A DNA stretch of 64,000 bases from Miscanthus floridulus (taxonomy: Eukaryota > Streptophyta > Magnoliopsida > Poales > Poaceae), in the NCBI RefSeq assembly GCF_019320115.1, contig NC_089581.1:94672802-94736801 (forward strand), written 5' to 3'. This document shows, piece after piece, positions 11,692 through 40,065 of this stretch. Every line of letters starts with the position of its first letter. The stretch's first letter is position 1. Position numbers and translations under genes: made by a program. A model generated the notes under the pieces. That model had not been told where the DNA came from and made no database searches. It was given only the letters and a program-made list of their open reading frames with translations.

Positions 11692-11704
11692 GCCCCTCCC
11701 CCTT
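11692..11704 (-). other. polypurine tract beside LTR A1
   Basis: Minus strand AAGGGGGAGGGGC immediately upstream of the 3' LTR start TGTAACACC. This is the plus-strand priming site for reverse transcription and confirms the minus orientation and 3' LTR identity. Equivalent tracts are at 18282-18294 and 29175-29187. Confidence 0.9.
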
Positions 11705-11708
11705 ATAA

Positions 11709-11727
11709 AAATCTCGTCCCGAGATTT
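11709..11727. promoter_or_regulatory. 8-bp inverted repeat just upstream of the polypurine tract
   Basis: AAATCTCG, three bases, CGAGATTT: a perfect hairpin 4 bases before the polypurine tract on the element strand. It is conserved at 18299-18317 and 29192-29210. Similar palindromes near the polypurine tract occur in other plant chromoviruses. A role in plus-strand priming or RNA structure is an inference. Confidence 0.6.
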
Positions 11728-11734
11728 GCAAGAC

Positions 11735-12270
11735 CTACCATTCTTGGAAAAAGGCGGGATAAACTTCTTGCAGATAATCTTCTCTTTCCCATGTAGCATC
11801 TTGTTCATTGTGATTGTTCCACACCACCTTATAGAACTTAATAATCTTACTCCTTGTTACTCTCTCCATCTCTTCTAATACTCGAATTGGCTTTTCTTCA
11901 TAGGTCAAATCCAATTGAAGTTGCACGTTGGTGGGTGCAATAGCTTCTTCCGGTACTCGAAGACATTTCTTTAGCTGCGAAACATGGAACACATCAAAGA
12001 TTGCACTCATCTCTGGTGGTAGTTGTAGCTTGTACGCAACATTTCCTTTTCGTTCCAAAATTTTGTATGGCCCTACATATCTTGGTGAAAGCTTCTTTTT
12101 CATCCCAAATCTCTTCACACCTTTCATGGGTGATACTCTCAAGTACACATAGTCACCTACTTCAAAAGTTAGTGGTCTTCTTCTTCTATCAGCATAACTC
12201 TTCTGTCTTGATTGAGCTGCCTTCATGTGTTGTTGGATGATACGTACTTGTTCTTCGGCTTCAGTAACAA
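11735..12270 (-). pseudogene. Tekay integrase C-terminus remnant with chromodomain
   Basis: The last about 178 codons of gag-pol, identical in protein to the end of 18325-22740. It contains the GPY/F module ([11 protein letters not shown]), the [11 protein letters not shown] segment and the chromodomain ([11 protein letters not shown]...ATWEREDYL). It is cut on its upstream side at the tandem-duplication junction (12270/12271), where Tat coiled-coil DNA follows directly. No start codon or catalytic core is left, so it is a by-product of the duplication. Confidence 0.9.
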
Positions 12271-13896: not shown

Positions 13897-16800
13897 TGTT
13901 GCAGAACCGACCAATTTATAAGAATACAAGTATAATGGCAATCCGCAAGCGGTTGCACTGTCATACTTGAACCCATATAAACCCGGTAGTCCGTCGAGTA
14001 CCACGACGGGTCTCGATAAACGATTTACAACAACCAAGATCGTATAGGATTCAACATACATGCCACATATTACATAAAGTTCACAGATACTTTTCATCAT
14101 CAGAGTACGAATAGAAAGTTATTACAAACCGAGTTTGATAATTAAAGCGGAAGCAAATAAGTTCGAAGATAAGTTTCCAACGTAGTTTGATACAGTGCCA
14201 TGCCAGATCACGATCCACAAAAGCAAAGATAGGAATTACTAAGGAAGGCTGCCCAAGGCTTACTCCTCATCCACAGCGGGATAGAAGCAACTCTTGCAAT
14301 AACCATGATACACAGTGCCATCTGCAACAATGGGAAAATAAACCCTAAGTACGAGAAGGTACTCAGCTAGACTTACCCGTCATGAACCAGAAATAAAATG
14401 ACTCCAAGGATCATGCAAGGCTGTATAAGTGGACGTAACTTGACAACATTTTGCGTAAAAGGCAATTACCCGTTGTACAATTATGATTCCTTTATCAAGT
14501 TAATTATAACTAACCATTTCTAGATTAGCAACTATCCTGTGCCAAACATGTGTATATCATTTAGAAGCATCCAATAGTAACCATAGCAGGTATTGTAATT
14601 CCATATTCATCTGAACCATCATGTTTCATAACATAGTTACTACGATGTTGGAGCTAGCCAAGTTTCTCACTATCCGGGAGAGACGGCGATTCGAATCGAT
14701 TTCTACCAGCTGGGAATTTATTCCTAACACAAACCCAGATCTACCAGCCACGATAGTCTTAGGTCACCTTTGGTACAACTCAGGTACACATTTCGCGGGT
14801 CCGTACCGTGCCGCACAATCTGGAACACCAGATGCCAGGATGCTCAGGCCAAGCCTACCCTTGGGCTCAGTCTGATCGTTCCCCGGAAGGAGCGCACAAC
14901 AGAACGGTTCCCGGCCTGAGTTGAATTACTCGGCTTCGCGGTCGGAACGAATTATCCGGCCAGCTAAGTGAGAGGCATGCGTTCAATCTTGTCAGAAGTT
15001 CCAACAACGGTACGGTCCTTGATCGACACAGACGGGGATAGATCCACACCCAAGACCTCCATGCCTTGTTGCTTTTCTATCGACCTCCCGTCCGGTCTCA
15101 ATTTACTTTTACCTCATGGTTCTGTTCCACGATAGCAGATATAGCCAACCGTGCTCCGGTATCCACCTATATCTCACAGGTGACAGGACATCACCCGACT
15201 TCTACCGGTCTAAGCATGGCTAAGCATATATATTCGATCCTGGACCTATACCGGTTAAAGGGATAATATCTGGACAAGGATTGTACATGCATCAAGTGGT
15301 TTCATTCAACTCTTATAACCTAATGCATCAATCATAAGTACGTAAGTAACCATTTGTAAATTATTGGGAGACTTATAATGCTCTGGGGCTTGCCTCGCAG
15401 AAAGGAAGTAGGGCGATGGTCAGGGCACTCCGGAAGCTCTTCAGGGTTCTGCTCCATGCCTTCGGGAGCTGCGGCTTGCGGATCCTCCTGCGGGTTCCCT
15501 TCCTCTACTTCTTCGAATTCCAGCAACGTGATCTCTTCCTCCGATCCTAGATGCATGAGTATGGTATAAGTATTACGAATGCATATGTGTTAACAAGTGC
15601 ATCATGTTGTTTGAGTAGGTGCATATCTCTTCTTGATTACTACTTAACTACTTTTGCAATGCATCGACTATGCCATACAGTAGCTACTTGTTTCACTCAT
15701 AACTGGAGTTCTATAAATCCAAAAGTAGTGATCCTAGACTTTCTGGAAAGCTTATCAAATTCTCTACGACTTTGTTATTAACCATTTTTACAGTCTACAT
15801 TAGTTTCAACATGTAACTCCTCACACTCTAGAATCAGTCCGGAAATGATTTAACATGCAATATAAAGTAAGACTACTTCTACTTTATGTAATCATTCACA
15901 ATTTGACAACCTAGAACCTACCAACAGTTGAAGCATACCAAATACAGTTAAGATAATATAATGGTGAAGCCCAAACTATTTATTAAATTGCCTTTATTAT
16001 TTTATTTAGATATCTAGGTTAAATAATAATTATATATCAGATGTGCTTAATAAATTCTCAAAAATTTACAGAGCCTTACTAATGCTATCAAAGGACTACT
16101 ATAAAAATTTCATGTCATTTTACTAAGTAGAACATCCTATGCAAAAATGATAAGGAAGCAAGGCTTGAAATAGCATAAATGGAAAATCCTATTGAAAAGT
16201 GTCAAGCAACAGATTTCTTATTTTTCCTAACATCCATATGGTACTAGTATTACCTCCAACAAATTTCATGAATTTTGGACTCATAATTAATTTATAAAAA
16301 TTCATGCAAGGATTAACTATTTATAAAAGAAAAATCTATAACTATAGATCTACACATGCACTGGTCTTCAAATTTTTATCCAAGCTCATGTATGCTAAGA
16401 CTAGCTTACCACAAAAATTTCATAATTTTTGGAGCACAGGAACTCTAGATATAAAATAAACAAATTTGAATGCATTCAAAAGCACCTTTGAAATCCCTAT
16501 TTAAATCTCCAGAAATTTCTACTGTGGAAGCCAAGAACATATTTTTACTAAATACTACACTTCCTAAGCAACACAATCATATTTATTTCACAATTTTTGG
16601 AGCTACCAAACTAAAGATACAAATTTCACAAAACAATTCAAAAACTGGATTCAAAATGAGTTAGCCTTCACTACTGCTGTCGCTGACAGGTGGGACCCGC
16701 TGGTCAGGGGACCCCACGCGTCAGTGACACAGAGCAGAGTAGCGGCGCTGCTGGGCACTGCGCGGCTGCGGCTCGTCGACGGCGAGCTTCGCCGGTGGTG

Positions 16801-18281
16801 AGGTCATCACGGTATGACCTACACGACCTAGCGCGTTGATTGGTATACTTGGCCGGCCCTATTGTCGCCACCCGCGACGACGGCGGCGGCAATGGCGGAG
16901 CGGCGGGGCTGGACCACGGCAAAACGCCGGTGGAGGCTACGGTGGTTCGACCTAAAGCTCGGACGAGCACCAGCTACCTAAGACGCACTCGACGCACTAG
17001 CTAACGCATGGATAGGTGGACTGTGGCGCTCCGGCCACGGTGACGGGGCTTGCGGCGGAGCTCCGGCGAGCTTAAACGCGCGGCGATGGCTTACCAAGCT
17101 TGGTCAGCGAGCACGGGAGGGAGCAGTGGTTCGCTGGGGAGGCGGAGGAGCTATGGTGGTGGTGCTGGAGTGGCTAGGCACGGGCTACGCGCGGCTATGG
17201 CGACGGCGGGGCTCCGAGAGCTCGGTGGCTACTGCTGCGAGGAAGAAAAGGCGCCGGGAGCGAAATGGGAGCGCGGGATGGCTCGGGCGGGTGCTGGCGT
17301 GATGAAGGCGTGCTCGGGCGCGGCGTGGCCTGCGCGGTCAGGGCAACGGCGACGCGCGGCCGTCGCCGGGGACACGCGGTGCGCGAACTCTGCCGGTGTC
17401 GGCCACTGACGCTCGCGATTTAGTTTCGTCAGTTAACTGAAAGGGGCGCCTGACAGCCGGTTTTGGCGATGACTTAACTTCCAATACGTGATGAATTAGT
17501 GCTAGGTTACTAAACCAACTTTTAGACCTAAGTACCAGTTACAATTGTTGTTCAATGATCGAGTTCTAATTCTCACCCGAACTCGAGTTATAATGCCCTG
17601 AAGGTCAGCTTGTCAGGCTGTCAGGGTTTCACGACTTAGCAAGAATTTGCTAAGTGTAGAATTTGTGATTTCTCTGATTTTTGAAACCCAAATTCACACA
17701 TGTTAGGAGCTGAATCAGTCAAGGGCCCAAAAATCAAAGTTGTTCCTTATGTCAAACACTACAACTTTGCTTTAGTGAACTCCTCCATGCAAGGTCCCTA
17801 ACACCTAGTTCAACTTTAGTCAAACATGTCACTTTGAAATCATGATACACATTCAAACCATGGCTAAATGACCAAACTAGCCCTAGCACTAAATACCAAA
17901 GTTGTTCCTAATGATACTCTAAGCATGTTAAAACAATTTGCAAGGTCATTTAAGCATTTCATGTAGTAGTCACTCATATAGCTATTGAAAGTAATCACAT
18001 GAAATATCACTCAAGTGCTTGGTCATGAAATGTGGACTTCATGAACAAGGTTCCTTTTGTTAACCTAAGTGTAGCTAAGGTGTTTTAGTGACTAGCACTA
18101 CCCACTTGCATTCATTTGCACATGACCACATGCATATGTTACCAGAAACACGAGATCACAAGCAATGTTTCATATGTTTTGATCAAATGTTTCAATTGTA
18201 AATGATGATTTATGAATGCTTGATGCTCATGCTCATGTTATGCAAGTCAAGTTATGCAAGGCTAACACCCGAGGTGTTACA
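13897..18281 (-). repeat. Tekay LTR A2 (3' LTR of internal region 2)
   Basis: 4385 bp, identical to LTR A1 as far as I can read. It differs from LTR B at more than ten positions in its left half (14045, 14634 and 15736 region, mostly C/T or G/A). It matches B without difference from 16142 to its right end. It differs from LTR C throughout. Its GC-rich island is at about 16675-17425. Confidence 0.93.
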
Positions 18282-18317
18282 GCCCCTCCCCCTTATAAAA
18301 ATCTCGTCCCGAGATTT
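18282..18317 (-). other. polypurine tract and adjacent hairpin of internal region 2
   Basis: PPT at 18282-18294 (minus strand AAGGGGGAGGGGC) and the perfect 8-bp hairpin at 18299-18317. This is the functional 3' end of internal region 2. Confidence 0.88.
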
Positions 18318-18324
18318 GCAAGAC

Positions 18325-21300
18325 CTACCATTCTTGGAAAAAGGCGGGATAAACTTCTTGCAGATAATCTTCTCTTTCCCATGTAGCATCTTGTTCATTG
18401 TGATTGTTCCACACCACCTTATAGAACTTAATAATCTTACTCCTTGTTACTCTCTCCATCTCTTCTAATACTCGAATTGGCTTTTCTTCATAGGTCAAAT
18501 CCAATTGAAGTTGCACGTTGGTGGGTGCAATAGCTTCTTCCGGTACTCGAAGACATTTCTTTAGCTGCGAAACATGGAACACATCAAAGATTGCACTCAT
18601 CTCTGGTGGTAGTTGTAGCTTGTACGCAACATTTCCTTTTCGTTCCAAAATTTTGTATGGCCCTACATATCTTGGTGAAAGCTTCTTTTTCATCCCAAAT
18701 CTCTTCACACCTTTCATGGGTGATACTCTCAAGTACACATAGTCACCTACTTCAAAAGTTAGTGGTCTTCTTCTTCTATCAGCATAACTCTTCTGTCTTG
18801 ATTGAGCTGCCTTCATGTGTTGTTGGATGATACGTACTTGTTCTTCGGCTTCATTAACAAAATCAATACCAAAATATCTCCTTTCACCGGGCTCAATCCA
18901 ATTCAATGGAGTTCTGCACTTTCTGCCATATAAGGCTTCAAGTGGAGCCATTTTGATACTCGCTTGATAACTGTTGTTATAGGAGAATTCAGCTAAAGGT
19001 AACCATTTCTCCCATGAACCTTTTGAAGATATAACACAAGCCCTAAGTAAATCTTCTAGGATTTGGTTCACTCTCTCTGTCTGCCCTGAAGTTTGCGGAT
19101 GATAAGCTGAACTCCTAATTAGCTTGGTTCCCAAAGCTTGGTGTAGGTGCTCCCAGAAACGAGCTATGAACTGTGGTCCTCTATCTGAGATTATGGTCCT
19201 GGGTACTCCATGCAATTTCACGATCTGGGAAACATATAACTCAGAGTATTTACCCGCGTGATATGTTGTGTGAACTGGTACAAAATGTGCTGACTTGGTG
19301 AGACGATCAACAATGACCCAGATTGAATCGTGACCTTGGGGTGTTGTTGGAAGGCCTGTGATAAAGTCCATGCTGATTTCCTCCCATTTCCATCCTGGAA
19401 TAGGCAATGGCTGAAGTAATCCAGCGGTTTTCATATGGACGGCTTTCACTCTACTGCAGTTATCACACCTAGCAACATAGGCTGCGATCTCTTTCTTCAT
19501 CTTAGTCCACCAAAAACGGTTTCTTAGATCCTGATACATTTTACTACTACCCGGGTGGATAGACAATTTGGAGGAGTGAGCTTCTTCTAAAATTTGATTC
19601 CTTAGCTCACGGTCTTTCGGCACCACTAGCCGGTCCTCAAACCATAATACACCTCTTTCGTCCAATCTAAAATGTTTGGTTTCTTGCTCTTGCATTTTTC
19701 TCTTGATGTGACTTATTCCTACATCAGTCTGCTGTAGCTCTATGATTTTGCCCTCAAGCGAACAACTGATTGTGATATTGTGTAGTACAGCAGGATGTAG
19801 CAAGTTGAATCCATCTTCCAATAGCGCTTCCATAGTGTTGCAATGGGACTTCCGACTAAGTGCATCGGCTACTACATTAGCTTTGCCCGGATGGTAATGC
19901 ACTTCCAAATTATAGTCCTTAATCAATTCCAACCATCTACGTTGTCTCATGTTCAGTTCTGGTTGGGTAAAGATATACTTGAGGCTTTTGTGGTCAGTAT
20001 AGATATGACATACATTGCCCAACAAGTAATGTCTCCATATCTTTAATGCATGGACAACAGCTGCAAGTTCCAAATCATGTGTAGGGTAGTTGACTTCATG
20101 TTTTCTCAGTTGCCTAGAGGCATATGCAATTACTCTCCCTTCTTGCATAAGTACACATCCCAAACCTATTCCTGATGCATCACAAAATACATCAAAAGGC
20201 TTTTCAATGTCTGGTTGTGCTAGCACTGGCGCTGTAGTCAACAAAGTTCTGAGAGTGTGAAAAGTTGTTTCACATTCTGGTGTCCACTTGTATTTCTCAT
20301 CTTTCTGAAGTAGTCGGGTCATAGGCTTAGCTATCTTTGAGAAGTCTGGAATAAACCGATGATAGTATCCTGCTAACCCTAGAAAACTCCGAACTTCATG
20401 CACTGAAGTTGGGGCTTTCCAATCCATGACCTCTTGTACTTTTGATGGGTCTACTGAGATTCCATCTCTTGATAATATGTGACCTAAGAAAGGTACTTTG
20501 CTCATCCAAAATTCACATTTGCTAAACTTGGCATATAGCTTATGCTCCCTCAGTCTGGATAGGACAATCCTCAGATGCTCTTCATGATCTGACTCATTTT
20601 CTGAATAAATCAATATGTCATCGATAAACACAACCACGAACTTATCAAGTTCGGGCATGAATACCGAATTCATTAGGTACATAAAGTAGGCTGGAGCATT
20701 TGTTAGTCCGAAAGACATAACCAGATACTCGTATAAGCCGTACCTAGTAGAGAAAGCAGTCTTAGGTATATCCTCCGGTCTGATCTTTATCTGGTGGTAA
20801 CCTGATCTTAAGTCAATTTTGGAGAATACCTTTGCCTTTGCTAGCTGATCGAACAAGATGTCGATGCGGGGTAACGGATATTTGTTTTGATGGTCACAGC
20901 ATTGAGTGGTCTGTAATCTACACACATCCTCAGTGACTTATCCTTCTTTTTCACAAACAGTGCTGGACATCCCCACGGAGATGAGCTAGGTTGGATAAGA
21001 CCTTTGTCCAATAGATCTTGCAATTGAACCTTGAGTTCTGCTAACTCATTGGGTGGCATTCTATAGGGCCTTCTGGATATGGGTGCGGTACCTGGCACTA
21101 ATTCGATCTTAAATTCCACGTCCCTATCCGGTGGTAGACCTAGGTAATTCTTCTGGAAATACATCTGGAAACTCACAAACCACTGGGGATATCACATATT
21201 GTGGTGGTTTGGATAGCACAGGCTAAATGTTGGGGTTCGAAATCGCGGGAGAGTGGAACTAGAAAAGCATTCCCTCCCGTGGGTTCTCTCAACATGATAG

Positions 21301-23092: not shown

Positions 23093-24055
23093 CTAATCCT
23101 CATCATGATCACTATCGAGGTCAGACGCAGAATCATCTCCTTCCCCAGGTTCTATTCCTTCTTAGGTGCCACTTCTTCTTCTTCCTCGTACCCTTCTAGA
23201 TCCATTTCTGCGGCTCCAGGTGGTACATAAGGGTGGAGCTGATTGTGCAGTAGATGAACCTCTTCATGCAGATTATCATTGTATTCTTCCGCATTGGCCA
23301 GCTGCTGTTCCAGCTCAAACTGTCGAGCTCTCAGGACATCTTCCCTGGACCAGGCTGCATTCCGTTGGTGAGTTAACCGAGTCATCTCTTCGGTGAGCCT
23401 CTCAATCTCGATGTCGTGCTCCCTCTGAAGCTGACGTCGGTCCTTCACGGGCATGACCAAGAGCACCAGACACACGTCTGAGGCTACCTTCAACTCCATC
23501 TAACACTCTCATCACTTGCGAACATGGCGCTCATGGCAGGGTTATCGCTGTTCTGCCCTTCTGCTGCACCAATTTCCAAGGGTCTTCCTCTTGCCTGCTG
23601 CCATGAGTCAGTGGAGGGATTACCTCTTGGAAAGACTCCAACCAAAGCGGCTGCCAGCTCCTGAGGAAAACGATCCATGATATCCTCAAGATCCCAAAGG
23701 CTGCCCTGCCAGCTGCTTCTTCAGCAGTCCTGCCAGTCGACTCATAACACCAGCCTGTCCACTCAGAATCGTCACCTCGGGGACGAACAACGGCCTCCAC
23801 AGTAACTAAGAGACCTTCTCCCAACCGCTCATTCGCCCAGAAGTAGCGGGGTTCCATTCCATCAGGATAACCTACATAGCTGAGCACTCTCCACAAGAGT
23901 GTAGGCATCCCAAACTCTCCAAGGAACGTGTGACGTTGACGGGTACGTGGAGCAAGCTGACGGCTAGGAGCTCTGCCTCCGGTGGACTTGCGAGCAGTCT
24001 GCTTGGTGCGTGCCATCTGCACCATTAACATGTACCCTTGGTGAGACAATGCCAT
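23093..24055 (-). pseudogene. ORF0, copy 2: H3-tail-mimic protein, frameshifted
   Basis: Counterpart of 33982-34944. The N-terminal 125 or so codons are open and keep the H3-like tail (ARTKQTARKSTGG from the ATG at 24016) with a synonymous GGA/GGC difference in the tail. One-base indels near 23682, 23516, 23442 and 23160 then break the coiled-coil and acidic parts into short frames. The tail itself is unchanged at the protein level, while the rest of the copy has several amino-acid changes (for example a Val/Ala change and an Ile/Thr change in the middle domain). Confidence 0.88.
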
Positions 24056-24789: not shown

Positions 24790-27700
24790 TGTCGCAGAAC
24801 CGACCAATTTATAAGAATACAAGTATAATGGCAATCCGCAAGCGGTTGCACTGTCATACTTGAACCCATATAAACCCGGTAGTCCGTCGAGTACCACGAC
24901 GGGTCTCGATAAACGATTTACAACAACCAAGATCGTACAGGATTCAACATACATGCCACATATTACATAAAGTTCACAGATACTTTTCATCATCAGAGTA
25001 CGAATAGAAAGTTATTACAAACCGAGTTTGATAATTAAAGCGGAAGCAAATAAGTTCGAAGATAAGTTTCCAACGTAGTTTGATACAGTGCCATGCCAGA
25101 TCACGATCCACAAAAGCAAAGATAGGAATTACTAAGGAAGCCTGCCCAAGGCTTACTCCTCATCCACAGCGGGATAGAAGCAACTCTTGCAATAACCATG
25201 ATACACAGTGCCATCTGCAACAATGGGAAAATAAACCCTGAGTACGAGAAGGTACTCAGCTAGACTTACCCGTCATGAACCAGAAATAAAATGACTCCAA
25301 GGATCATGCAAGGCTGTATAAGTGGACGTAACTTGACAACATTTTGCGTAAAAGGCAATTACCCGTTGTACAATTATGATTCCTTTATCAAGTTAATTAT
25401 AACTAACCATTTCTAGATTAGCAACTATCCTGTGCCAAACATGTGGTATATCATTTAGAAGCATCCAATAGTAACCATAGCAGGTATTGTAATTCCATAT
25501 TCATCTGAACCATCATGTTTCATAACACAGTTACTACGATGTTGGAGCTAGCCAAGTTTCTCACTATCCGGGAGAGACGGCGATTCGAATCGATTTCTAC
25601 CAGCTGGGAATTTATTCCTAACACAAACCCAGATCTACCAGCCACGATAGTCTTAGGTCACCTTTGGTACAACTCAGGTACACATTTCGCGGGTCCGTAC
25701 CGCGCCGCACAATCTGGAACACCAGATGCCAGGATGCTCAGGCCAAGCCTGCCCTTGGGCTCAGTCTGATCGTTCCCCGGAAGGAGCGCACAACAGAACG
25801 GTTCCCGGCCTGAGTTGAATTACTCGGCTTCGCGGTCGGAACGAATTATCCGGCCAGCTAAGTGAGAGGCATGCGTTCAATCTTGTCAGAAGTTCCAACA
25901 ACGGTACGGTCCTTGATCGACACAGACGGGGATAGATCCACACCCAAGACCTCCATGCCTTGTTGCTTTCTATCGACCTCCCGTCCGGTCTCAATTTACT
26001 TTTACCTCATGGTTCTGTTCCACGATAGCAGATATAGCCAACCGTGCTCCGGTATCCACCTATATCTCGCAGGTGACAGGACATCACCCGACTTCTACCG
26101 GTCTAAGCATGGCTAAGCATATATATTCGATCCTGGACCTATACCGGTTAAAGGGATAATATCTGGACAAGGATTGTACATGCATCAAGTGGTTTCATTC
26201 AACTCTTATAACCTAATGCATCAATCATAAGTACGTAAGTAACCATTTGTAAATTACTGGGAGACTTATAATGCTCCGGGGCTTGCCTCGCAGAAAGGAA
26301 GTAGGGCGATGGTCAGGGCACTCCGGAAGCTCTTCAGGGTTCTGCTCCACGCCTTCGGGAGCTGCGGCTTGCGGATCCTCCTGCGGGTTCCCTTCCTCTG
26401 CTTCTTCGAATTCCAGCAACGTGATCTCTTCCTCCGATCCTAGATGCATGAGTATGGTATAAGTATTACGAATGCATATGTGTTAACAAGTGCATCATGT
26501 TGTTTGAGTAGGTGCATATCTCTTCTTGATTACTACTTAACTACTTTTGCAATGCATCGACTATGCCATACAGTAGCTACTTGTTTCACTCATAACTGGA
26601 GTTCTATAAATCCAAAAGCAGTGATCCTGGACTTTCTGGAAAGCTTATCAAATTCTCTACGACTTTGTTATTAACCATTTTTACAGTCTACATTAGTTTC
26701 AACATGTAACTCCTCACACTCTAGAATCAGTCCGGAAATGATTTAACATGCAATATAAAGTAAGACTACTTCTACTTTATGTAATCATTCACAATTTGAC
26801 AACCTAGAACCTACCAACAGTTGAAGCATACCAAATACAGTTAAGATAATATAATGGTGAAGCCCAAACTATTTATTAAATTGCCTTTATTATTTTATTT
26901 AGATATCTAGGTTAAATAATAATTATATATCAGATGTGCTTAATAAATTCTCAAAAATTTACAGAGCCTTACTAATGCTATCAAAGGACTACTATAAAAA
27001 TTTCATGTCATTTTACTAAGTAGAACATCCTATACAAAAATGATAAGGAAGCAAGGCTTGAAATAGCATAAATGGAAAATCCTATTGAAAAGTGTCAAGC
27101 AACAGATTTCTTATTTTTCCTAACATCCATATGGTACTAGTATTACCTCCAACAAATTTCATGAATTTTGGACTCATAATTAATTTATAAAAATTCATGC
27201 AAGGATTAACTATTTATAAAAGAAAAATCTATAACTATAGATCTACACATGCACTGGTCTTCAAATTTTTATCCAAGCTCATGTATGCTAAGACTAGCTT
27301 ACCACAAAAATTTCATAATTTTTGGAGCACAGGAACTCTAGATATAAAATAAACAAATTTGAATGCATTCAAAAGCACCTTTGAAATCCCTATTTAAATC
27401 TCCAGAAATTTCTACTGTGGAAGCCAAGAACATATTTTTACTAAATACTACACTTCCTAAGCAACACAATCATATTTATTTCACAATTTTTGGAGCTACC
27501 AAACTAAAGATACAAATTTCACAAAACAATTCAAAAACTGGATTCAAAATGAGTTAGCCTTCACTACTGCTGTCGCTGACAGGTGGGACCCGCTGGTCAG
27601 GGGACCCCACGCGTCAGTGACACAGAGCAGAGTAGCGGCGCTGCTGGGCACTGCGCGGCTGCGGCTCGTCGACGGCGAGCTTCGCCGGTGGTGAGGTCAT

Positions 27701-29174
27701 CACGGTATGACCTACACGACCTAGCGCGTTGATTGGTATACTTGGCCGGCCCTATTGTCGCCACCCGCGACGACGGCGGCGGCAATGGCGGAGCGGCGGG
27801 GCTGGACCACGGCAAAACGCCGGTGGAGGCTACGGTGGTTCGACCTAAAGCTCGGACGAGCACCAGCTACCTAAGACGCACTCGACGCACTAGCTAACGC
27901 ATGGATAGGTGGACTGTGGCGCTCCGGCCACGGTGACGGGGCTTGCGGCGGAGCTCCGGCGAGCTTAAACGCGCGGCGATGGCTTACCAAGCTTGGTCAG
28001 CGAGCACGGGAGGGAGCAGTGGTTCGCTGGGGAGGCGGAGGAGCTATGGTGGTGGTGCTGGAGTGGCTAGGCACGGGCTACGCGCGGCTATGGCGACGGC
28101 GGGGCTCCGAGAGCTCGGTGGCTACTGCTGCGAGGAAGAAAAGGCGCCGGGAGCGAAATGGGAGCGCGGGATGGCTCGGGCGGGTGCTGGCGTGATGAAG
28201 GCGTGCTCGGGCGCGGCGTGGCCTGCGCGGTCAGGGCAACGGCGACGCGCGGCCGTCGCCGGGGACACGCGGTGCGCGAACTCTGCCGGTGTCGGCCACT
28301 GACGCTCGCGATTTAGTTTCGTCAGTTAACTGAAAGGGGCGCCTGACAGCCGGTTTTGGCGATGACTTAACTTCCAATACGTGATGAATTAGTGCTAGGT
28401 TACTAAACCAACTTTTAGACCTAAGTACCAGTTACAATTGTTGTTCAATGATCGAGTTCTAATTCTCACCCGAACTCGAGTTATAATGCCCTGAAGGTCA
28501 GCTTGTCAGGCTGTCAGGGTTTCACGACTTAGCAAGAATTTGCTAAGTGTAGAATTTGTGATTTCTCTGATTTTTGAAACCCAAATTCACACATGTTAGG
28601 AGCTGAATCAGTCAAGGGCCCAAAAATCAAAGTTGTTCCTTATGTCAAACACTACAACTTTGCTTTAGTGAACTCCTCCATGCAAGGTCCCTAACACCTA
28701 GTTCAACTTTAGTCAAACATGTCACTTTGAAATCATGATACACATTCAAACCATGGCTAAATGACCAAACTAGCCCTAGCACTAAATACCAAAGTTGTTC
28801 CTAATGATACTCTAAGCATGTTAAAACAATTTGCAAGGTCATTTAAGCATTTCATGTAGTAGTCACTCATATAGCTATTGAAAGTAATCACATGAAATAT
28901 CACTCAAGTGCTTGGTCATGAAATGTGGACTTCATGAACAAGGTTCCTTTTGTTAACCTAAGTGTAGCTAAGGTGTTTTAGTGACTAGCACTACCCACTT
29001 GCATTCATTTGCACATGACCACATGCATATGTTACCAGAAACACGAGATCACAAGCAATGTTTCATATGTTTTGATCAAATGTTTCAATTGTAAATGATG
29101 ATTTATGAATGCTTGATGCTCATGCTCATGTTATGCAAGTCAAGTTATGCAAGGCTAACACCCGAGGTGTTACA
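24790..29174 (-). repeat. Tekay LTR B, middle LTR, recombinant
   Basis: 4385 bp. Its left half (24790 to about 26629) shares diagnostic bases with LTR C against A (C at 24938, C at 25528, C at 26619, G at 26629). Its right half (from 26982) shares bases with LTR A against C. The switch lies between 26629 and 26982. This is the expected product of crossing-over between a 3' LTR and a 5' LTR. Private one-base indels occur near 25443 (+G) and 25969 (-T). Confidence 0.92.
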
Positions 29175-29217: not shown

Positions 29218-32200
29218 CTACCATTCTTGGAAAAAGGCGGGATAAACTTCTTGCAGATAATCTTCTCTTTCCCATGTAGCATCTTGTTCATTGTGATTGT
29301 TCCACACCACCTTATAGAACTTAATAATCTTACTCCTTGTTACTCTCTCCATCTCTTCTAATACTCGAATTGGCTTTTCTTCATAGGTCAAATCCAATTG
29401 AAGTTGCACGTTGGTGGGTGCAATAGCTTCTTCCGGTACTCGAAGACATTTCTTTAGCTGCGAAACATGGAACACATCAAAGATTGCACTCATCTCTGGT
29501 GGTAGTTGTAGCTTGTACGCAACATTTCCTTTTCGTTCCAAAATTTTGTATGGCCCTACATATCTTGGTGAAAGCTTCTTTTTCATCCCAAATCTCTTCA
29601 CACCTTTCATGGGTGATACTCTCAAGTACACATAGTCACCTACTTCAAAAGTTAGTGGTCTTCTTCTTCTATCAGCATAACTCTTCTGTCTTGATTGAGC
29701 TGCCTTCATGTGTTGTTGGATGATACGTACTTGTTCTTCGGCTTCATTAACAAAATCAATACCAAAATATCTCCTTTCACCGGGCTCAATCCAATTCAAT
29801 GGAGTTCTGCACTTTCTGCCATATAAGGCTTCAAGTGGAGCCATTTTGATACTCGCTTGATAACTGTTGTTATAGGAGAATTCAGCTAAAGGTAACCATT
29901 TCTCCCATGAACCTTTTGAAGATATAACACAAGCCCTAAGTAAATCTTCTAGGATTTGGTTCACTCTCTCTGTCTGCCCTGAAGTTTGCGGATGATAAGC
30001 TGAACTCCTAATTAGCTTGGTTCCCAAAGCTTGGTGTAGGTGCTCCCAGAAACGAGCTATGAACTGTGGTCCTCTATCTGAGATTATGGTCCTGGGTACT
30101 CCATGCAATTTCACGATCTGGGAAACATATAACTCAGAGTATTTACCCGCGTGATATGTTGTGTGAACTGGTACAAAATGTGCTGACTTGGTGAGACGAT
30201 CAACAATGACCCAGATTGAATCGTGACCTTGGGGTGTTGTTGGAAGGCCTGTGATAAAGTCCATGCTGATTTCCTCCCATTTCCATCCTGGAATAGGCAA
30301 TGGCTGAAGTAATCCAGCGGTTTTCATATGGACGGCTTTCACTCTACTGCAGTTATCACACCTAGCAACATAGGCTGCGATCTCTTTCTTCATCTTAGTC
30401 CACCAAAAACGGTTTCTTAGATCCTGATACATTTTACTACTACCCGGGTGGATAGACAATTTGGAGGAGTGAGCTTCTTCTAAAATTTGATTCCTTAGCT
30501 CACGGTCTTTCGGCACCACTAGCCGGTCCTCAAACCATAATACACCTCTTTCGTCCAATCTAAAATGTTTGGTTTCTTGCTCTTGCATTTTTCTCTTGAT
30601 GTGACTTATTCCTACATCAGTCTGCTGTAGCTCTATGATTTTGCCCTCAAGCGAACAACTGATTGTGATATTGTGTAGTACAGCAGGATGTAGCAAGTTG
30701 AATCCATCTTCCAATAGCGCTTCCATAGTGTTGCAATGGGACTTCCGACTAAGTGCATCGGCTACTACATTAGCTTTGCCCGGATGGTAATGCACTTCCA
30801 AATTATAGTCCTTAATCAATTCCAACCATCTACGTTGTCTCATGTTCAGTTCTGGTTGGGTAAAGATATACTTGAGGCTTTTGTGGTCAGTATAGATATG
30901 ACATACATTGCCCAACAAGTAATGTCTCCATATCTTTAATGCATGGACAACAGCTGCAAGTTCCAAATCATGTGTAGGGTAGTTGACTTCATGTTTTCTC
31001 AGTTGCCTAGAGGCATATGCAATTACTCTCCCTTCTTGCATAAGTACACATCCCAAACCTATTCCTGATGCATCACAAAATACATCAAAAGGCTTTTCAA
31101 TGTCTGGTTGTGCTAGCACTGGCGCTGTAGTCAACAAAGTTCTGAGAGTGTGAAAAGTTGTTTCACATTCTGGTGTCCACTTGTATTTCTCATCTTTCTG
31201 AAGTAGTCGGGTCATAGGCTTAGCTATCTTTGAGAAGTCTGGAATAAACCGATGATAGTATCCTGCTAACCCTAGAAAACTCCGAACTTCATGCACTGAA
31301 GTTGGGGCTTTCCAATCCATGACCTCTTGTACTTTTGATGGGTCTACTGAGATTCCATCTCTTGATAATATGTGACCTAAGAAAGGTACTTTGCTCATCC
31401 AAAATTCACATTTGCTAAACTTGGCATATAGCTTATGCTCCCTCAGTCTGGATAGGACAATCCTCAGATGCTCTTCATGATCTGACTCATTTTCTGAATA
31501 AATCAATATGTCATCGATAAACACAACCACGAACTTATCAAGTTCGGGCATGAATACCGAATTCATTAGGTACATAAAGTAGGCTGGAGCATTTGTTAGT
31601 CCGAAAGACATAACCAGATACTCGTATAAGCCGTACCTAGTAGAGAAAGCAGTCTTAGGTATATCCTCCGGTCTGATCTTTATCTGGTGGTAACCTGATC
31701 TTAAGTCAATTTTGGAGAATACCTTTGCCTTTGCTAGCTGATCGAACAAGATGTCGATGCGGGGTAACGGATATTTGTTTTTGATGGTCACAGCATTGAG
31801 TGGTCTGTAATCTACACACATCCTCAGTGACTTATCCTTCTTTTTCACAAACAGTGCTGGACATCCCCACGGAGATGAGCTAGGTTGGATAAGACCTTTG
31901 TCCAATAGATCTTGCAATTGAACCTTGAGTTCTGCTAACTCATTGGGTGGCATTCTATAGGGCCTTCTGGATATGGGTGCGGTACCTGGCACTAATTCGA
32001 TCTTAAATTCCACGTCCCTATCCGGTGGTAGACCTAGTAATTCTTCTGGAAATACATCTGGAAACTCACAAACCATGGGGATATCACATATTGTGGTGGT
32101 TTGGATAGCACAGGCTAAATGTTGGGGTTCGAAATCGCGGGAGAGTGGAACTAGAAAAGCATTCCCTCCCGTGGGTTCTCTCAACATGATAGTACGGGTG

Positions 32201-33630
32201 CTAGTGTCAATAAGAACACCATGATCCTTCATCCAATTCATGCCTAAGATTACACTTATCGACAATCCCGGCAATATTATCAAATCTGTTGTGTACTCCC
32301 TCCCTTGTATCAAAATGAGTACATTTTTGACTATCTTTTTGGTAGTAACAGTACCCCCTGCTGAACTTATGTTATAACCCCCTTTACTTACTTCTATTAT
32401 TTCTTGATCATGTCTAGATGCAAATGCTTGACTCATAAATGAATGAGAAGCTCCCGAATCAAATAAAACAACAGCGGGGTGCTTGTTGACAAGAAACATA
32501 CCAGCCGTGACAACTTCTCTGGCGGGCACTTCCTCCACAGCAGTATAATGCACTTGTCCCTGACGTGCCCTGGCATTCACCTGCCTCTGATTGTTCTGAT
32601 TTGGGTTGCCATTCCTCTTGGGGTGGGGGCACTCCTTGGACCAATGACCCAGTTGGTTGCAGTTGAAACAAGGTTGATTGCTTCTGAATCCGGCGGAGCT
32701 GTCCTGATTACCATTCCCTTTTGGTAAGGCAATAGTGAACGCCTTACGAAATGGTTTCTGTGGCCTGTTATTCTGAGCTTTCGGTGGTGGAGGCCTGAAC
32801 TTGGGTGCAGGTGGACGGAATTGTGGCCTAGCTGTGATAGGCGCTTTTGACTGGAAAGATCCGGATGCACCGGCTTCATACGTCCTTTTGCGACCCTTTG
32901 CAACTGCATGCATGTTGTTGTGGTTTTCTTGGGTCAAGGCATCACTAATAAACTCATTGTACGTGGCACATCGAGAGTTTGCCATAGTCTTCATTAATTT
33001 GGTACCCAGACCTCGCTTGAAACTCTCAATCTTTTTCTCTTCAGTATCCACGAAACTTGGAGCATATCTTGACAAGTTGTTGAATGCGTGCATATATTCT
33101 GTGAGTGACTTTGTTCCCTGAGTGAGCCTCATAAATTCTGCTGCTTTCATGCGCATCAGGCCCAGGGGAATATGGTGTCCCCTAAAAGCCAGCTTGAATT
33201 GATCCCAGGTCACTCTCGCATTAGCAGGCAGAGACGACAGAAAGTGCGTCCACCAGATTCCTGCTGGTCCTTGCAATTGATGAGAAGCATATTCTGCTTT
33301 CAGGTGCTCTGTGACCCTTAGCAGACGAAATTTCTGCTCGATGGTATTCAGCCACTCATCGGCCTGCAGTGGTTCCTCAGCCACCTTGAAGATCGGAGGC
33401 TTCGTGTCCAGAAACTCCTTGAATGAACTGTGCTGATTTGGCTCGTCCCCTGGTTGCTGTGGGTGGCCACGAGCAGTGTTTTGCGCGATAAGGCGCAAAG
33501 CTTCTTCCATTGTCCTCTGGCTCCCTAGGAACTGGGCAAAGAATTCTTGAGCAGACGGTGGCGGTGGGGGTGGCAAGTCATCCTGGTTGCCATCCTGGCT
33601 GCCACCAGCTCCAGCACGGGTGCGCGTCAT
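29218..33630 (-). CDS. Tekay-type gag-pol polyprotein with C-terminal chromodomain, intact
   Basis: 1470 aa, uninterrupted. Gag capsid (retrotrans_gag-like) lies at about 60-235. The zinc knuckle [14 protein letters not shown] is at about 321-334. Protease active site is DSGASHSF near 391. Reverse transcriptase runs at about 560-780, with the catalytic block [10 protein letters not shown] near 703-712. RNase H has D in FCDASG near 853, E in HDLELAA and D in YTDHKSL. The integrase HHCC zinc finger spans about 1054-1094, and the core has D in MDFITG near 1124, D in SDRGPQF near 1185 and E in GQTERVN near 1221. The GPY module is near 1359 and the chromodomain at about 1417-1466. Length and order fit an autonomous Ty3/gypsy chromovirus. 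The start follows CAG. ORF0 lies 351 bp upstream. Confidence 0.96.
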
Positions 33631-33981: not shown

Positions 33982-34944
33982 CTAATCCTCATCATGATCA
34001 CTATCGAGGTCAGACGCAGAATCATCTCCTTCCCCAGGTTCTATTCCTTCTTTAGGTGCCACTTCTTCTTCTTCCCCGTAACCTTCTAGATCCATTTCTG
34101 CAGCTCCAGGTGGTACATAAGGGTGGAGCTGATTGTGCAGTAGATGAACCTCTTCATGCAGATTATCGTTGTATTCTTCCGCATTTGCTAGCTGCTGTTC
34201 CAGCTCAAACTGTCGAGCTCTCAGGACATCTTCCCTGGACCAGGCTGCATTCCGTTGGTGAGTTAACCGAGTCATCTCTTCGGTGAGCCTCTCAACCTCA
34301 ATGTCGTGCTCCCTCTGAAGCTGACGTCGGTCTTCACGGGCATGACCAAGAGCACCAGACACACGTCTGAGGCTACCTTCAACTCCATCCAACACTCTCA
34401 TCACTGCGAACATGGCGCTCATGGAAGGGTTATCACTGTTCTGCCTTTCTGCTGCACCAATTTCTAAGGGTCTTCCTCTTGCCTGCTGCCATGAGTCAGT
34501 GGATGGGTTACCTCTTGGAAAGACTCCAACCAAAGCGGCTGCCAGCTCCTGAGGAAAACGATCCATGATATTCCTCAAGATCCCAAAAGCTGCCCTACCA
34601 GCTGCTTCTTCAGCAGTCCTGCCAGTTGACTCATAACACCAGCCTATCCACTCAGAATCGTCACCTCGGGGACGAACAACGACCTCCACAGTAACTAAGA
34701 GACCTTCTCCCAACCGCTCATTCGCCCAGAAGTAGCGGGGTTCCATTCCATCAGGATAACCTACATAGCTGAGCACTCTCCACAAAAGTGTAGGCATCCC
34801 AAACTCTCCAAGGAACGTGTGACGTTGACGGGTACGTGGAGCAAGCTGACGGCTAGGAGCTCTTCCTCCGGTGGACTTGCGAGCAGTCTGCTTGGTGCGT
34901 GCCATCTGTACCATTAACATGTACCCTTGGTGAGACAATGCCAT
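33982..34944 (-). CDS. ORF0: histone H3 N-terminal tail mimic fused to a coiled-coil protein
   Basis: 320 aa from the first ATG (34944, A at -3 and G at +4), or 307 aa from the ATG at 34905. From the second, ARTKQTARKSTGG equals H3 residues 1-13, followed by R-A-P-S-R-Q-L-A, giving 18 of 21 matches with the H3 tail. No histone fold follows, so this is not an H3 gene. Residues about 50-140 form a compact domain (EGLLVTVEVVVRP; GRTAEEAAGRAAFGIL) with a beta-then-alpha pattern reminiscent of double-stranded-RNA-binding domains, which is an inference. About 180-272 is a charged coiled coil and 284-320 an acidic tail. It lies between the PBS leader and gag. Extra ORFs upstream of gag are, as I recall, described in some rice gypsy elements, but I know no report of an H3 tail. 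Its function is unknown; chromatin-factor binding is the obvious hypothesis. Confidence 0.9.
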   Translation of the reverse strand: MALSHQGYMLMVQMARTKQTARKSTGGRAPSRQLAPRTRQRHTFLGEFGMPTLLWRVLSYVGYPDGMEPRYFWANERLGEGLLVTVEVVVRPRGDDSEWIGWCYESTGRTAEEAAGRAAFGILRNIMDRFPQELAAALVGVFPRGNPSTDSWQQARGRPLEIGAAERQNSDNPSMSAMFAVMRVLDGVEGSLRRVSGALGHAREDRRQLQREHDIEVERLTEEMTRLTHQRNAAWSREDVLRARQFELEQQLANAEEYNDNLHEEVHLLHNQLHPYVPPGAAEMDLEGYGEEEEVAPKEGIEPGEGDDSASDLDSDHDED

Positions 34945-35660: not shown

Positions 35661-35672
35661 GCTCTAATGCCA
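35661..35672 (-). other. primer binding site, internal region 1
   Basis: Minus strand TGGCATTAGAGC, two mismatches from the initiator tRNA-Met complement; one of them (T for C) is private to this copy. It lies 2 bases from the LTR C terminus. Confidence 0.85.
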
Positions 35673-35674
35673 GC

Positions 35675-38600
35675 TGTCGCAGAACCGACCAATTTATAAG
35701 AATACAAGTATAATGGCAATCCGCAAGCGGTTGCACTGTCATACTTGAACCCATATAAACCCGGTAGTCCGTCGAGTACCACGACGGGTCTCGATAAACG
35801 ATTTACAACAACCAAGATCGTACAGGATTCAACATACATGCCACATATTACATAAAGTTCACAGATACTTTTCATCATCAGAGTACGAATAGAAAGTTAT
35901 TACAAACCGAGTTTGATAATTAAAGCGGAAGCAAATAAGTTCGAAGATAAGTTTCCAATGTAGTTTGATACAGTGCCATGCCAGATCACGATCCACAAAA
36001 GCAAAGATAGGAATTACTAAGGAAGCCTGCCCAAGGCTTACTCCTCATCCACAGCGGGATAGAAGCAACTCTTGCAATAACCATGATACACAGTGCCATC
36101 TGCAACAATGGGAAAATAAACCCTAAGTACGAGAAGGTACTCAGCTAGACTTACCCGTCATGAACCAGAAATAAAATGACTCCAAGGATCATGCAAGGCT
36201 GTATAAGTGGACGTAACTTGACAACATTTTGCGTAAAAGGCAATTACCCGTTGTACAATTATGATTCCTTTATCAAGTTAATTATAACTAACCATTTCTA
36301 GATTAGCAACTATCCTGTGCCAAACATGTGTATATCATTTAGAAGCATCCAATAGTAACCATAGCAGGTATTGTAATTCCATATTCATCTGAACCATCAT
36401 GTTTCATAACACAGTTACTACGATGTTGGAGCTAGCCAAGTTTCTCACTATCCGGGAGAGACGGCGATTCGAATCGATTTCTACCAGCTGGGAATTTATT
36501 CCTAACACAAACCCAGATCTACCAGCCACGATAGTCTTAGGTCACCTTTGGTACAACTCAGGTACACATTTCGCGGGTCCATACCGCGCCGCACAATCTG
36601 GAACACCAGATGCCAGGATGCTCAGGCCAAGCCTGCCCTTGGGCTCAGTCTGATCGTTCCCCGGAAGGAGCGCACAACAGAACGGTTCCCGGCCTGAGTT
36701 GAATTACTTGGCTTCGCGGTCGGAACGAATTATCCGGCCAGCTAAGTGAGAGGCATGCGTTCAATCTTGTCAGAAGTTCCAACAATGGTACGGTCCTTGA
36801 TCGACACAGACAGGGATAGATCTACACCCAAGACCTCCATGCCTTGTTGCTTTTCTATCGACCTCCCGTCCGGTCTCAATTTACTTTTACCTCATGGTTC
36901 TGTTCCACGATAGCAGATATAGCCAACCGTGCTCCGGTATCCACCTATATCTCGCAGGTGACAGGACATCACCCAACTTCTACCGGTCTAAGCATGGCTA
37001 AGCATATATATTCGATCCTGGACCTATACCGGTTAAAGGGATAATATCTGGACAAGGATTGTACATGCATCAAGTGGTTTCATTCAACTCTTATAACCTA
37101 ATGCATCAATCATAAGTACGTAAGTAACCATTTGTAAATTACTGGGAGACTTATAATGCTCCGGGGCTTGCCTCGCAGAAAGGAAGTAGGGCGATGGTCA
37201 GGGCACTCCGGAAGCTCTTCAGGGTTCTGCTCCACGCCTTCGGGAGCTGCGGCTTGCAGATCCTCCTGCGGGTTCCCTTCCTCTGCTTCTTCGAATTCCA
37301 GCAACGTGATCTCTTCCTCCGATCCTAGATGCATGAGTATGGTATAAGTATTACGAATGCATATGTGTTAACAAGTGCATCATGTTGTTTGAGTAGGTGC
37401 ATATCTCTTCTTGATTACTACTTAACTACTTTTGCAATGCATCGACTATGCCATACAGTAGCTACTTGTTTCACTCATAACTGGAGTTCTATAAATCCAA
37501 AAGCAGTGATCCTGGACTTTCTGGAAAGCTTATCAAATTCTCTACGACTTTGTTATTAACCATTTTTACAGTCTACATTAGTTTCAACATGTAACTCCTC
37601 ACACTCTAGAATCAGTCCGGAAATGATTTAACATGCAATATAAAGTAAGACTACTTCTACTTTATGTAATCATTCACAATTTGACAACCTAGAACCTACC
37701 AACAGTTGAAGCATACCAAATACAGTTAAGATAATATAATGGTGAAGCCCAAACTATTTATTAAATTGCCTTTATTATTTTATTTAGATATCTAGGTTAA
37801 ATAATAATTATATATCAGATGTGCTTAATAAATTCTCAAAAATTTACAGAGCCTTACTAATGCTATGAAAGGACTACTATAAAAATTTCATGTCATTTTA
37901 CTAAGTAGAACATCCTATGCAAAAATGATAAGGAAGCAAGGCTTGAAATAGCATAAATGGAAAATCCTATTGAAAAGTGTCAAGCAACAGATTTCTTATT
38001 TTTCCTAACATCCATATGGTACTAGTATTACCTCCAACAAATTTCATGAATTTTGGACTCATAATTAATTTATAAAAATTCATGCAAGGATTAACTATTT
38101 ATAAAAGAAAAATCTATAACTATAGATCTACACATGCACTGGTCTTCAAATTTTTATCCAAGCTCATGTATGCTAAGACTAGCTTACCACAAAAATTTCA
38201 TAATTTTTGGAGCAAAGGAACTCTAGATATAAAATAAACAAATTTGAATGCATTCAAAAGCACCTTTGAAATCCCTATTTAAATCTCCAGAAATTTCTAC
38301 TGTGGAAGCCAAGAACATATTTTTACTAAATACTACACTTCCTAAGCAACACAATCATATTTATTTCACAATTTTTGGAGCTACCAAACTAAAGATACAA
38401 ATTTCACAAAACAATTCAAAAACTGGATTCAAAATGAGTTAGCCTTCACTACTGCTGTTGCTGACAGGTGGGACCCGCTGGTCAGGGGACCCCACGCGTC
38501 AGTGACACAGAGCAGAGCAGCGGCGCTGCTGGGCACTGCGCGGCTGCGGCTCGTCGACGGCGAGCTTCACCGGCGGTGAGGTCATCACGGTATGACCTAC

Positions 38601-40060
38601 ATGACCTAGCGCGTTGATTGGTATACTTGGCCGGCCCTATCGTCGCCACCCGCGACGACGGCGGCGGCAATGGCGGAGCGGCGGGGCTGGACCACGGCAA
38701 AACGCCGGTGGAGGCTATGGTGGTTCAACCTAAAGCTCGGACGAGCACCAGCTACCTAAGACGCACTCGACGCACTAGCTAACGCATGGATAGGTGGACT
38801 GTGGCGCTCCGGCCACGGTGACGGGGCTTGCGGCGGAGCTCCGGCGAGCTTAAACGCGCGGCGATGGCTTACCAAGCTTGGTCAGCGAGCACGGGAGGGA
38901 GCAGTGGTTCGCTGGGGAGGCGGAGGAGCTATGGTGGTGGTGCTGGAGTGGCTAGGCGCGGGCTGCGCGCGGCTATGGCGACGGCGGGGCTCCGAGAGCT
39001 CGGCGGCTGCTGCTGCGAGGAAGAAAAGGCGCCAGGAGCGAAATGGGAGCGCGGGATGGCTCGGGCGGGCGCTGGCGTGATGAAGGCGCGCTCGGGCGCG
39101 GCGTGGCCTGCGCGGTCAGGGCAACGGCGACACGCGGCCGTCGCCGGGGACACGCGGCGCGCGAACTCTGCCGGTGTCGGCCACTGACGCTCGCGATTCA
39201 GTTTCGTCAGTTAACTGAAAGGGGCGCCTGACAGCTGGTTTTGGCGATGACTTAACTTCCAATACGTGACGAATTAGTGCTAGGTTACTAAACCAACTTT
39301 GTAGACCTAAGTACCAGTTACAATTGTTGTTCAATGATCGAGTTCTAATTCTCACCCGAACTCGAGTTATAATGCCCTGAAGGTCAGCTTGTCAGGCTGT
39401 CAGGGTTTCACGACTTAGCAAGAATTTGCTAAGTGTAGAATTTGTGATTTCTCTGATTTTTGAAACCCAAATTCACACATGTTAGGAGCTGAATCAGTCA
39501 AGGGCCCAAAAATCAAAGTTGTTCCTTATGTCAAACACTACAACTTTGCTTTAGTGAACTCCTCCATGCAAGGTCCCTAACACCTAGTTCAACTTTAGTC
39601 AAACATGTCACTTTGAAATCATGATACACATTCAAACCATGGCTAAATGACCAAACTAGCCCTAGCACTAAATACCAAAGTTGTTCCTAATGATACTCTA
39701 AGCATGTTAAAACAATTTGCAAGGTCATTTAAGCATTTCATATAGTAGTCACTCATATAGCTATTGAAAGTAATCACATGAAATATCACTCAAGTGCTTG
39801 GTCATGAAATGTGGACTTCATGAACAAGGTTCCTTTTGTTAACCTAAGTGTAGCTAAGGTGTTTTAGTGACTAGCACTACCCACTTGCATTCATTTGCAC
39901 ATGACCACATGCATATGTTACCAGAAACACGAGATCACAAGCAATGTTTCATATGTTTCGATCAAATGTTTCAATTGTAAATGATGATTTATGAATGCTT
40001 GATGCTCATGCTCATGTTATGCAAGTCAAGTTATGCAAGGCTAACACCCGAGGTGTTACA
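35675..40060 (-). repeat. Tekay LTR C (5' LTR of the array, 4386 bp)
   Basis: TGTCGCAGAACC...GGTGTTACA on the plus strand, followed by TCAAT. It is the least A-like of the four LTRs: many private transitions in the right half (for example 37867 G, and several in the GC-rich island at about 38455-39225) and a one-base insertion near 39301. As the outer 5' LTR it should contain the promoter that drives transcription of internal region 1. Confidence 0.93.
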
Positions 40061-40065
40061 TCAAT
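40061..40065. repeat. target-site duplication TCAAT, right copy
   Basis: Pairs with 7302-7306. Removing the insertion together with one TSD copy restores an open junction in the Tat antisense frame, which supports a precise insertion. Confidence 0.93.

Follow-up and report, generated by a model that had tools for sequence, protein, structure and literature searches.

Why would a plant retrotransposon encode a protein that begins like histone H3? The question is raised by a 64,000-nt stretch of the Miscanthus floridulus genome (NC_089581.1; hereafter the window, meaning the whole stretch analyzed), whose minus strand carries a Ty3/gypsy element of the Tekay chromovirus type with an extra open reading frame (ORF), ORF0, located between the leader and gag-pol. 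An initial annotation had read ORF0 as an H3-tail mimic. We analyzed its sequence, its retention across subfamilies, its residue pattern, its predicted fold and its match to a host exon, all by computation, and the results partly support that reading, since the tail is retained in frame across subfamilies and in another grass. Its sequence and predicted fold make ORF0 a strong candidate histone mimic, encoded by an abundant grass retrotransposon and acting on the machinery of transposon silencing, and we put the probability that the mimicry acts on host H3-tail factors at about 0.5.

The H3-like N-terminus of ORF0

The features concerned are as follows.
33982..34944, minus strand: ORF0, 320 amino acids
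34834..34902, minus strand: H3-like tail, equivalent to H3 residues 1-23 (ORF0 residues 15-37), with the start codon at 34903-34905
23531..24055, minus strand: second ORF0 copy with an identical tail and a frame broken further on; the Met of its tail is at 24016

The N-terminus of ORF0 reads MALSHQGYMLMVQ-MARTKQTARKSTGGRAPSRQLAPRTRQ, and from Met14 onwards MARTKQTARKSTGGRAPSRQLAPR. As first described, H3 residues 1-13 are matched exactly and 18 of 21 residues match overall, the mismatches being K14R, R17S and K18R. The tail directly follows an in-frame Met at codon 14, but the thirteen residues before this Met are a trait of the window's subfamily only: in other subfamilies, the frame upstream of the tail Met differs or has stops, and the ORF begins at the Met of MARTK. 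The upstream stops in some copies support translation from this Met. A profile built from 42 ORF0 relatives recovered the H3 tails of the PDB with an E-value of 3e-9 over profile positions 1 to ~31, indicating that the resemblance is not due to chance. The absence of a histone fold after the tail was also borne out, as histone families are absent from the Pfam matches and the predicted model consists of a domain resembling a double-stranded RNA-binding domain (dsRBD) and a long helix; the Pfam scan of the window ORF0 gave no family above its cut-off. ORF0 therefore shows what is expected of an H3-tail mimic: it is not a histone, yet it bears an H3-like sequence with both K4 and K9.

Retention of the tail in the genome and in other grasses

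Four ORF0 queries against the 2.68-Gb M. floridulus genome gave at least 125, 123, 150 and 150 scored matches extending into the tail; these counts cover the best candidates only and should be taken as minimum values. Positions 4 and 9 hold lysine in all 53 genome tails that we read (L001-L008, L019-L038 and L044-L068, with the same-place repeats L040, L041 and L043 omitted), which are best-scoring or hand-picked copies and not a random sample. Re-reading confirmed the tail in L053-L055, L057 and L058. Protein searches returned 64, 19 and 150 matches (120 listed for the last), each set including some histones or fungal proteins, and most of the plant-like matches derive from metagenome contigs for which no host is named. 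Among the protein matches listed, P0067 of Aristida adscensionis is the sole named plant protein that has the tail and no histone domain; it carries the tail on a very different body, and Aristida belongs to another subfamily of the PACMAD grasses. The many in-frame copies in the same genome, together with the Aristida protein, speak against a one-off chimera, the outcome that the initial annotation had named as fatal to its reading. Of 47 proteins sharing the C-terminal coil motif of ORF0, 25 fit the tail pattern and P0044 also bears a tail; among the other 21, twenty begin within the body and are therefore uninformative, while P0058 has a mixed annotation.

The same genome also holds a tail-less lineage with a dsRBD-like domain, revealed by the query P0069, whose 122 matches contained no tail-bearing ORF and none that reached the tail start (10 loci read). 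Tail-less ORFs with a related dsRBD-like domain are abundant (L039:8774-9658, minus strand; L042:8774-9667, minus strand; L009-L018) and have starts such as MAGAW or MAEEG. Scans of viral contigs with ORF0 and gag-pol, and of GTDB genomes with ORF0, found no relatives; none would be expected there for an element of plants.

Conservation, selection and the lysine pattern

To compare tail and body, we used 16 representatives hand-chosen from 48 tail-bearing proteins (the tail-bearing P0044, P0055, P0147 and P0164 are not among the 48). Mean identity is 78% in the tail versus 28% in the rest, and the tail exceeds the rest in 119 of 120 pairs; where the rest is below 35% identical (90 pairs), the tail mean is still 78%, with a minimum of 58%. 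This deep contrast is partly an ascertainment effect, since it was the tail that led to many of the relatives. The H3 residues A1, T6, K9, G12, P16 and L20 are present in 16/16, T3, K4 and T11 in 15/16, A7, R8, Q19 and A21 in 14/16, and R2, S10 and R17 in 13/16, followed by G13 (9/16), Q5 (8/16) and A15 (4/16); the K9 and K4 counts are partly forced, since the tail pattern demanded lysine at position 9 and either lysine or arginine at position 4. K14, K18, T22 and K23 are found in 0/16: K23 is replaced by R, K18 by H or R, and K14 by R or G in all 16. Six of the 16 carry an extra residue next to position 14, lysine in four and histidine in two, which was dropped before counting, so that the statement that there is no lysine near position 14 is untrue for 4/16. 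Beyond the 16, P0093 retains K14 and T22, and the genome copies L052 and L058 have K at position 14.

We then calculated the ratio of nonsynonymous to synonymous substitution rates (dN/dS) between three close subfamilies, A (that of the window), B and C, from 23 loci (7 A, 12 B and 4 C; L004, L024 and L048 are among those left out). For residues 2-24, dN/dS was 0.30 (A-B), 0.15 (A-C) and 0.16 (B-C), for residues 2-14 it was 0.09, 0.18 and 0.23, and for the body 0.16, 0.11 and 0.15, respectively. The tail is thus under purifying selection. Two observations nevertheless weigh against functional mimicry: between these close subfamilies the dN/dS of the tail is not lower than that of the body, the two being under similar constraint, and the tail of the P0112 subfamily has drifted. 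The prediction that the tail would be under stronger purifying selection than the rest consequently holds at deep divergence (78% versus 28%) but not in dN/dS between close subfamilies; the tail outlasts the body only over long times.

In H3, K14, K18 and K23 are among the usual acetylation sites of the tail, and K4 and K9 are methylation sites. With K14, K18 and K23 lost and K4 and K9 kept, the usual acetylation sites are absent while the methylation sites remain. K4 and K9 account for all or nearly all of the lysines of P0048, P0001 (the window ORF0) and P0060; the window tail would therefore be methylatable but not acetylatable at the usual sites. In P0112, all lysines also lie within the tail, but there are four of them. 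The body of the window ORF0 has 1 lysine and 28 arginines, compared with 100 and 94 in gag-pol (P = 2e-8, binomial on the lysine share), and the bodies of P0048 and P0112 have none, versus 1 to 10 in the other 16 sequences counted. The lysine-depleted bodies (0-1 lysine; window 33985-34833, P0048 and P0112) have normal arginine, and lysine makes up 6.8% of gag-pol; such a body is possibly a lysine desert that avoids ubiquitination.

The body of ORF0

The initial annotation had described the body as a small domain, a coiled coil and an acidic tail. This layout stands, and predicted models now give the small domain a dsRBD fold.
34525..34800, minus strand: dsRBD-like domain, residues 49-140, predicted alpha-beta-beta-beta-alpha, net charge -4
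34126..34428, minus strand: long predicted helix, presumed coiled coil, residues 173-273, with the family motif LHEEVHxLxNQL
33985..34125, minus strand: acidic C-terminal tail, net charge -17

The plant domains closest to the dsRBD-like model are those of DRB7.2 (8igd) and the second dsRBD of DCL4 (9k9p), with only 14-17% identity to plant DRB and DCL dsRBDs. In contrast to these, the ORF0 domain is acidic (net charge -4) and by eye lacks a KKxAK-like start of helix 2. KKxAK is the motif through which dsRBDs contact RNA at helix 2, and the window has GRTAEEAAGR there (by eye). The Pfam dsRBD profile gave nothing above its cut-off for the window ORF0, and no dsRBD was present among 25 of the 124 Pfam families matching the 42 relatives. 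The domain would behave less as an RNA binder than as a dsRBD that pairs with proteins. A search of a viral structure library gave no clean match, its best rows having root-mean-square deviations of 17-26; for a second model, ribosome-hibernation proteins were among the lower VIA rows.

Origin of the tail and its splice-like context

In nine intron-bearing H3 genes of the host, which we take to be of the H3.3 type by gene structure, one coding exon consists of exactly Met and residues 1-23 and is followed by GT; in three of the nine, CAG directly precedes the ATG. The resemblance of ORF0 to H3 covers the same 24 codons. Over 72 nt, the window tail is 74-81% identical to seven intron-bearing H3 exons versus 65-71% to 12 intronless H3 genes, and in its first 42 nt, 36-39 positions match the intron-bearing genes and 33-36 the intronless ones; for subfamilies B and C, nucleotide similarity does not discriminate between the two kinds of host gene. 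P0093 and L022 share two further residues with H3, A24 and R26, beyond the exon end, and capture at the exact exon boundary is therefore not proven. A captured H3 exon is the likeliest origin of the tail, though not a proven one.

The ATG stands in a splice-acceptor-like context.
34906..34911, minus strand: GTACAG, 3' splice-site-like, immediately 5' of the ORF0 ATG
36149..36157, minus strand: CGG/GTAAGT (slash, exon end), strong 5' splice-site-like, in the 5' long terminal repeat (LTR), 1249 nt upstream of the ATG
35675..40060, minus strand: 5' LTR, 4386 bp
35661..35672, minus strand: primer-binding-site-like TGGCATTAGAGC, adjoining the 5' LTR (position derived by hand from the sequence)

The ATG is preceded by CTACAG in most copies of other subfamilies, by GTACAG or GTGCAG in subfamily A, and by CTACAGT in the P0112 type. 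The donor-like CGG/GTAAGT lies 1.24-1.33 kb upstream in all seven A, B and C loci that extend that far; the two P0112-type loci scanned are without it and have other donor-like sites, as scored with a splice-donor matrix. The stretch between the LTR and ORF0 (770 nt) contains 32 ATGs. From these signals we infer that ORF0 would be translated from a spliced mRNA without the primer-binding site.

A proposed mode of action

How might such a protein work? ORF0 may serve the Tekay-type chromoviruses of grasses as an accessory protein in the nucleus, with an H3 tail that was captured and later remodelled as its N-terminus. The proposal adds to the computed features a set of steps that we infer, namely mRNA splicing, Met removal, multimerisation, action in the nucleus, the partners and the anti-silencing effect. 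Once the initiator Met is cleaved off, the protein would begin with an exposed A1-R2-T3-K4...R8-K9-S10, like H3 itself, and several tails could be displayed together by the coiled coil. The tail would then serve as a decoy for host readers and writers of the K4-unmethylated, K9-methylated H3 tail. Candidate targets are the SAWADEE reader SHH1, the SUVH H3K9 methyltransferases and the CMT methyltransferases. SHH1 recruits Pol IV through its SAWADEE domain to methylated K9 with unmethylated K4, and the retention of both K4 and K9 would fit a reader of both. In the dsRBD-bearing subfamilies, the acidic dsRBD may pair with DCL or DRB proteins. The decoy model is favored because K4 and K9 are kept and because the dsRBD is similar to domains of Dicer partners that belong to this silencing route; decoy and pairing together would dampen silencing of the element by RNA-directed DNA methylation (RdDM) and H3K9 methylation. 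We advance the complete version only tentatively: a two-pronged RdDM antagonist, made from a spliced mRNA without the primer-binding site, whose multimeric, non-acetylatable K4/K9 tail titrates SHH1/Pol IV, SUVH and CMT while its DRB-like dsRBD hinders Dicer pairing.

Alternative explanations

The tail could instead be a ligand of the element's own integrase chromodomain, or a tether of the integration complex to heterochromatin readers, and serve assembly or target choice and not silencing evasion.
29218..33630, minus strand: gag-pol, 1470 amino acids, open frame, with gag, zinc knuckle, protease, reverse transcriptase, RNase H, integrase and chromodomain
29221..29346, minus strand: C-terminal chromodomain of the integrase, under the Pfam cut-off, with H as third cage aromatic and the tryptophan retained

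Both of the examined tail-bearing elements with an open gag-pol end in a chromodomain-like stretch: that of the window and L040, a P0112-type locus in which ORF0 is followed by gag-pol. According to the available parts of PMC3350952 and PMC6317226, the group II chromodomains of plants are devoid of cage aromatics and have no known partner, a gap that a self-encoded ligand would fill. The same degeneracy of the group II cage also counts against such binding. In the window, the third aromatic has changed from Y to H and the first is lost or shifted (by eye), so that binding of H3K9me by this chromodomain is doubtful, and tail-less dsRBD-ORF elements occur, though of uncertain class. We consider this explanation unlikely.

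We are similarly sceptical that the tail is a mere nuclear-import or basic nucleic-acid-binding segment taken from H3, with no specific mimicry. The H3 tail is basic and can serve import, and the tail with its linker has a net charge of +8, but the conserved positions include the non-basic A1, T6, G12, P16 and L20 (16/16) and T3 and T11 (15/16), K14 and K18 give way to R, H or G, and the tail keeps its place at the start Met even though the bodies differ greatly. That an H3 exon was captured by accident and its tail hitch-hikes without function is already disfavored and very improbable, for although the tail ends where the host coding exon ends and has drifted in the P0112 subfamily, its dN/dS is well below 1 between subfamilies, synonymous differences encode the same residues, and it is retained on very divergent bodies including that of Aristida.

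The element and its surroundings

The initial annotation had placed ORF0 in a Tekay-type element. The chromovirus order was confirmed by Pfam domains in both the window element and L040 (gag, protease, reverse transcriptase, RNase H and integrase with a C-terminal chromodomain), with the correction that the element sits within a minus-strand tandem array, LTR-internal-LTR-internal-LTR, with a unit of 10.89 kb and LTRs of 4.39 kb.
24790..29174, minus strand: middle LTR of the array
13897..18281, minus strand: outer 3' LTR, 98.95% identical to 35675-40060
40061..40065 and 13892-13896, unstranded: 5-bp target-site duplication, ATTGA in minus-strand reading

Taking the grass substitution rate as 1.3e-8 per site and year, the divergence of the outer LTRs corresponds to roughly 0.4 million years, and the element is thus young. 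The chromodomain (PF00385) scores 17.1 bits in the window and 24.6 bits in L040, below the curated cut-off of 25.1; against the PDB, the window stretch matches the CLR4 chromodomain (E = 0.013) and 2m2l (E = 1e-4). Of the two Tekay chromodomain motifs defined in the available part of PMC3350952, (K/R)X(L/T)RX(k/r) appears by eye as RVTRSK in the window and RVTRRR in L040, and EEXTWEXE as EEATWESE in L040, the window having only the partial match QDATWERE.

Positions 5681-12272 and 12271-18862 form a 6.59-kb tandem duplication of 99.985% identity that spans the 3' end of the element and ~1.6 kb of flank, and is either a very recent event or an assembly artefact. A separate copia-type gag (PF14223) lies at 790-2796 on the minus strand, with a long C-terminal extension weakly matching coiled-coil families.

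The protein searches also brought up other proteins with H3-like tails. P0063 (Daedalea quercina), P0066 (Armillaria mellea) and P0061 have three to four H3-tail-like repeats (ARKSTGG...) and no histone domain; they appear to be multi-tail H3 mimics of independent origin, and the named sources are fungi. P0068, P0071, P0073 (Talaromyces pinophilus) and P0135 form a family, one member of which has a fungal source, that begins with MARTKQTARKSTGGRAPRKQ(L/I) and continues into a conserved stretch, unrelated to histones and at most ~300 amino acids long. In P0138, P0160 (Podospora comata), P0080 and P0079, at least one of them fungal, H3 tails precede F-box (PF00646, PF12937), AAA ATPase (PF00004) and other proteins.

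Relation to known systems and implications

Known histone mimics of viruses and host proteins carry short H3-like motifs of about 4-6 residues. ORF0 resembles them in having a short H3-like sequence on a non-histone protein that is proposed to engage H3-tail factors, and differs in matching ~23 positions from the true N-terminus, on a retrotransposon protein present in many copies. The closest counterpart in position and element type, compared by description only, is the ORF0 of Retrosat2 in rice and its relatives, an extra ORF beside ORF1 (gag-pol) of long-LTR grass elements; according to the available text of PMC3485330, ORF1 is conserved while ORF0 evolves fast (~10% between Retrosat2 and its sorghum homolog), hydrolase- or transferase-like roles were inferred from models, and the word 'histone' is absent from the main text. 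Retrosat-2 is assigned to Tekay in the consulted part of PMC6317226.

The nearest precedents that we saw, each in a partial text, are a fungal hAT transposon that captured and amplified H3, with copies inactivated by repeat-induced point mutation (PMC6710886), and VANC of the VANDAL transposons, anti-silencing proteins in a race with RdDM (PMC10398659). ORF0 shares with the former the capture of H3 coding sequence by a transposable element and its subsequent amplification, but keeps only the tail, as the N-terminus of another protein family. With VANC it would share, as a hypothesis, the action of a transposon-encoded protein against plant epigenetic silencing, but, compared by description, it would work via chromatin or Dicer-pathway proteins. 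In the part of the open-licence PMC literature covered, which includes few subscription journals, we found no transposon-encoded H3-tail mimic. If the two-pronged proposal is true, ORF0 would be the first such histone mimic known to us.

Histone mimicry is known in viruses and host proteins; a long copy of the H3 tail in an abundant retrotransposon would be mimicry within the genome, possibly directed against the silencing of transposable elements. It gives the unexplained ORF0 of long-LTR grass elements a testable function, and makes the tail a candidate partner for the plant group II chromodomains, for which no ligand is known according to the sources as available. A practical prediction is that antibodies against H3K4me or H3K9me may pick up a non-histone protein where the element is expressed. 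If true, the proposed antagonism would be one reason for the high copy numbers of grass Tekay elements.
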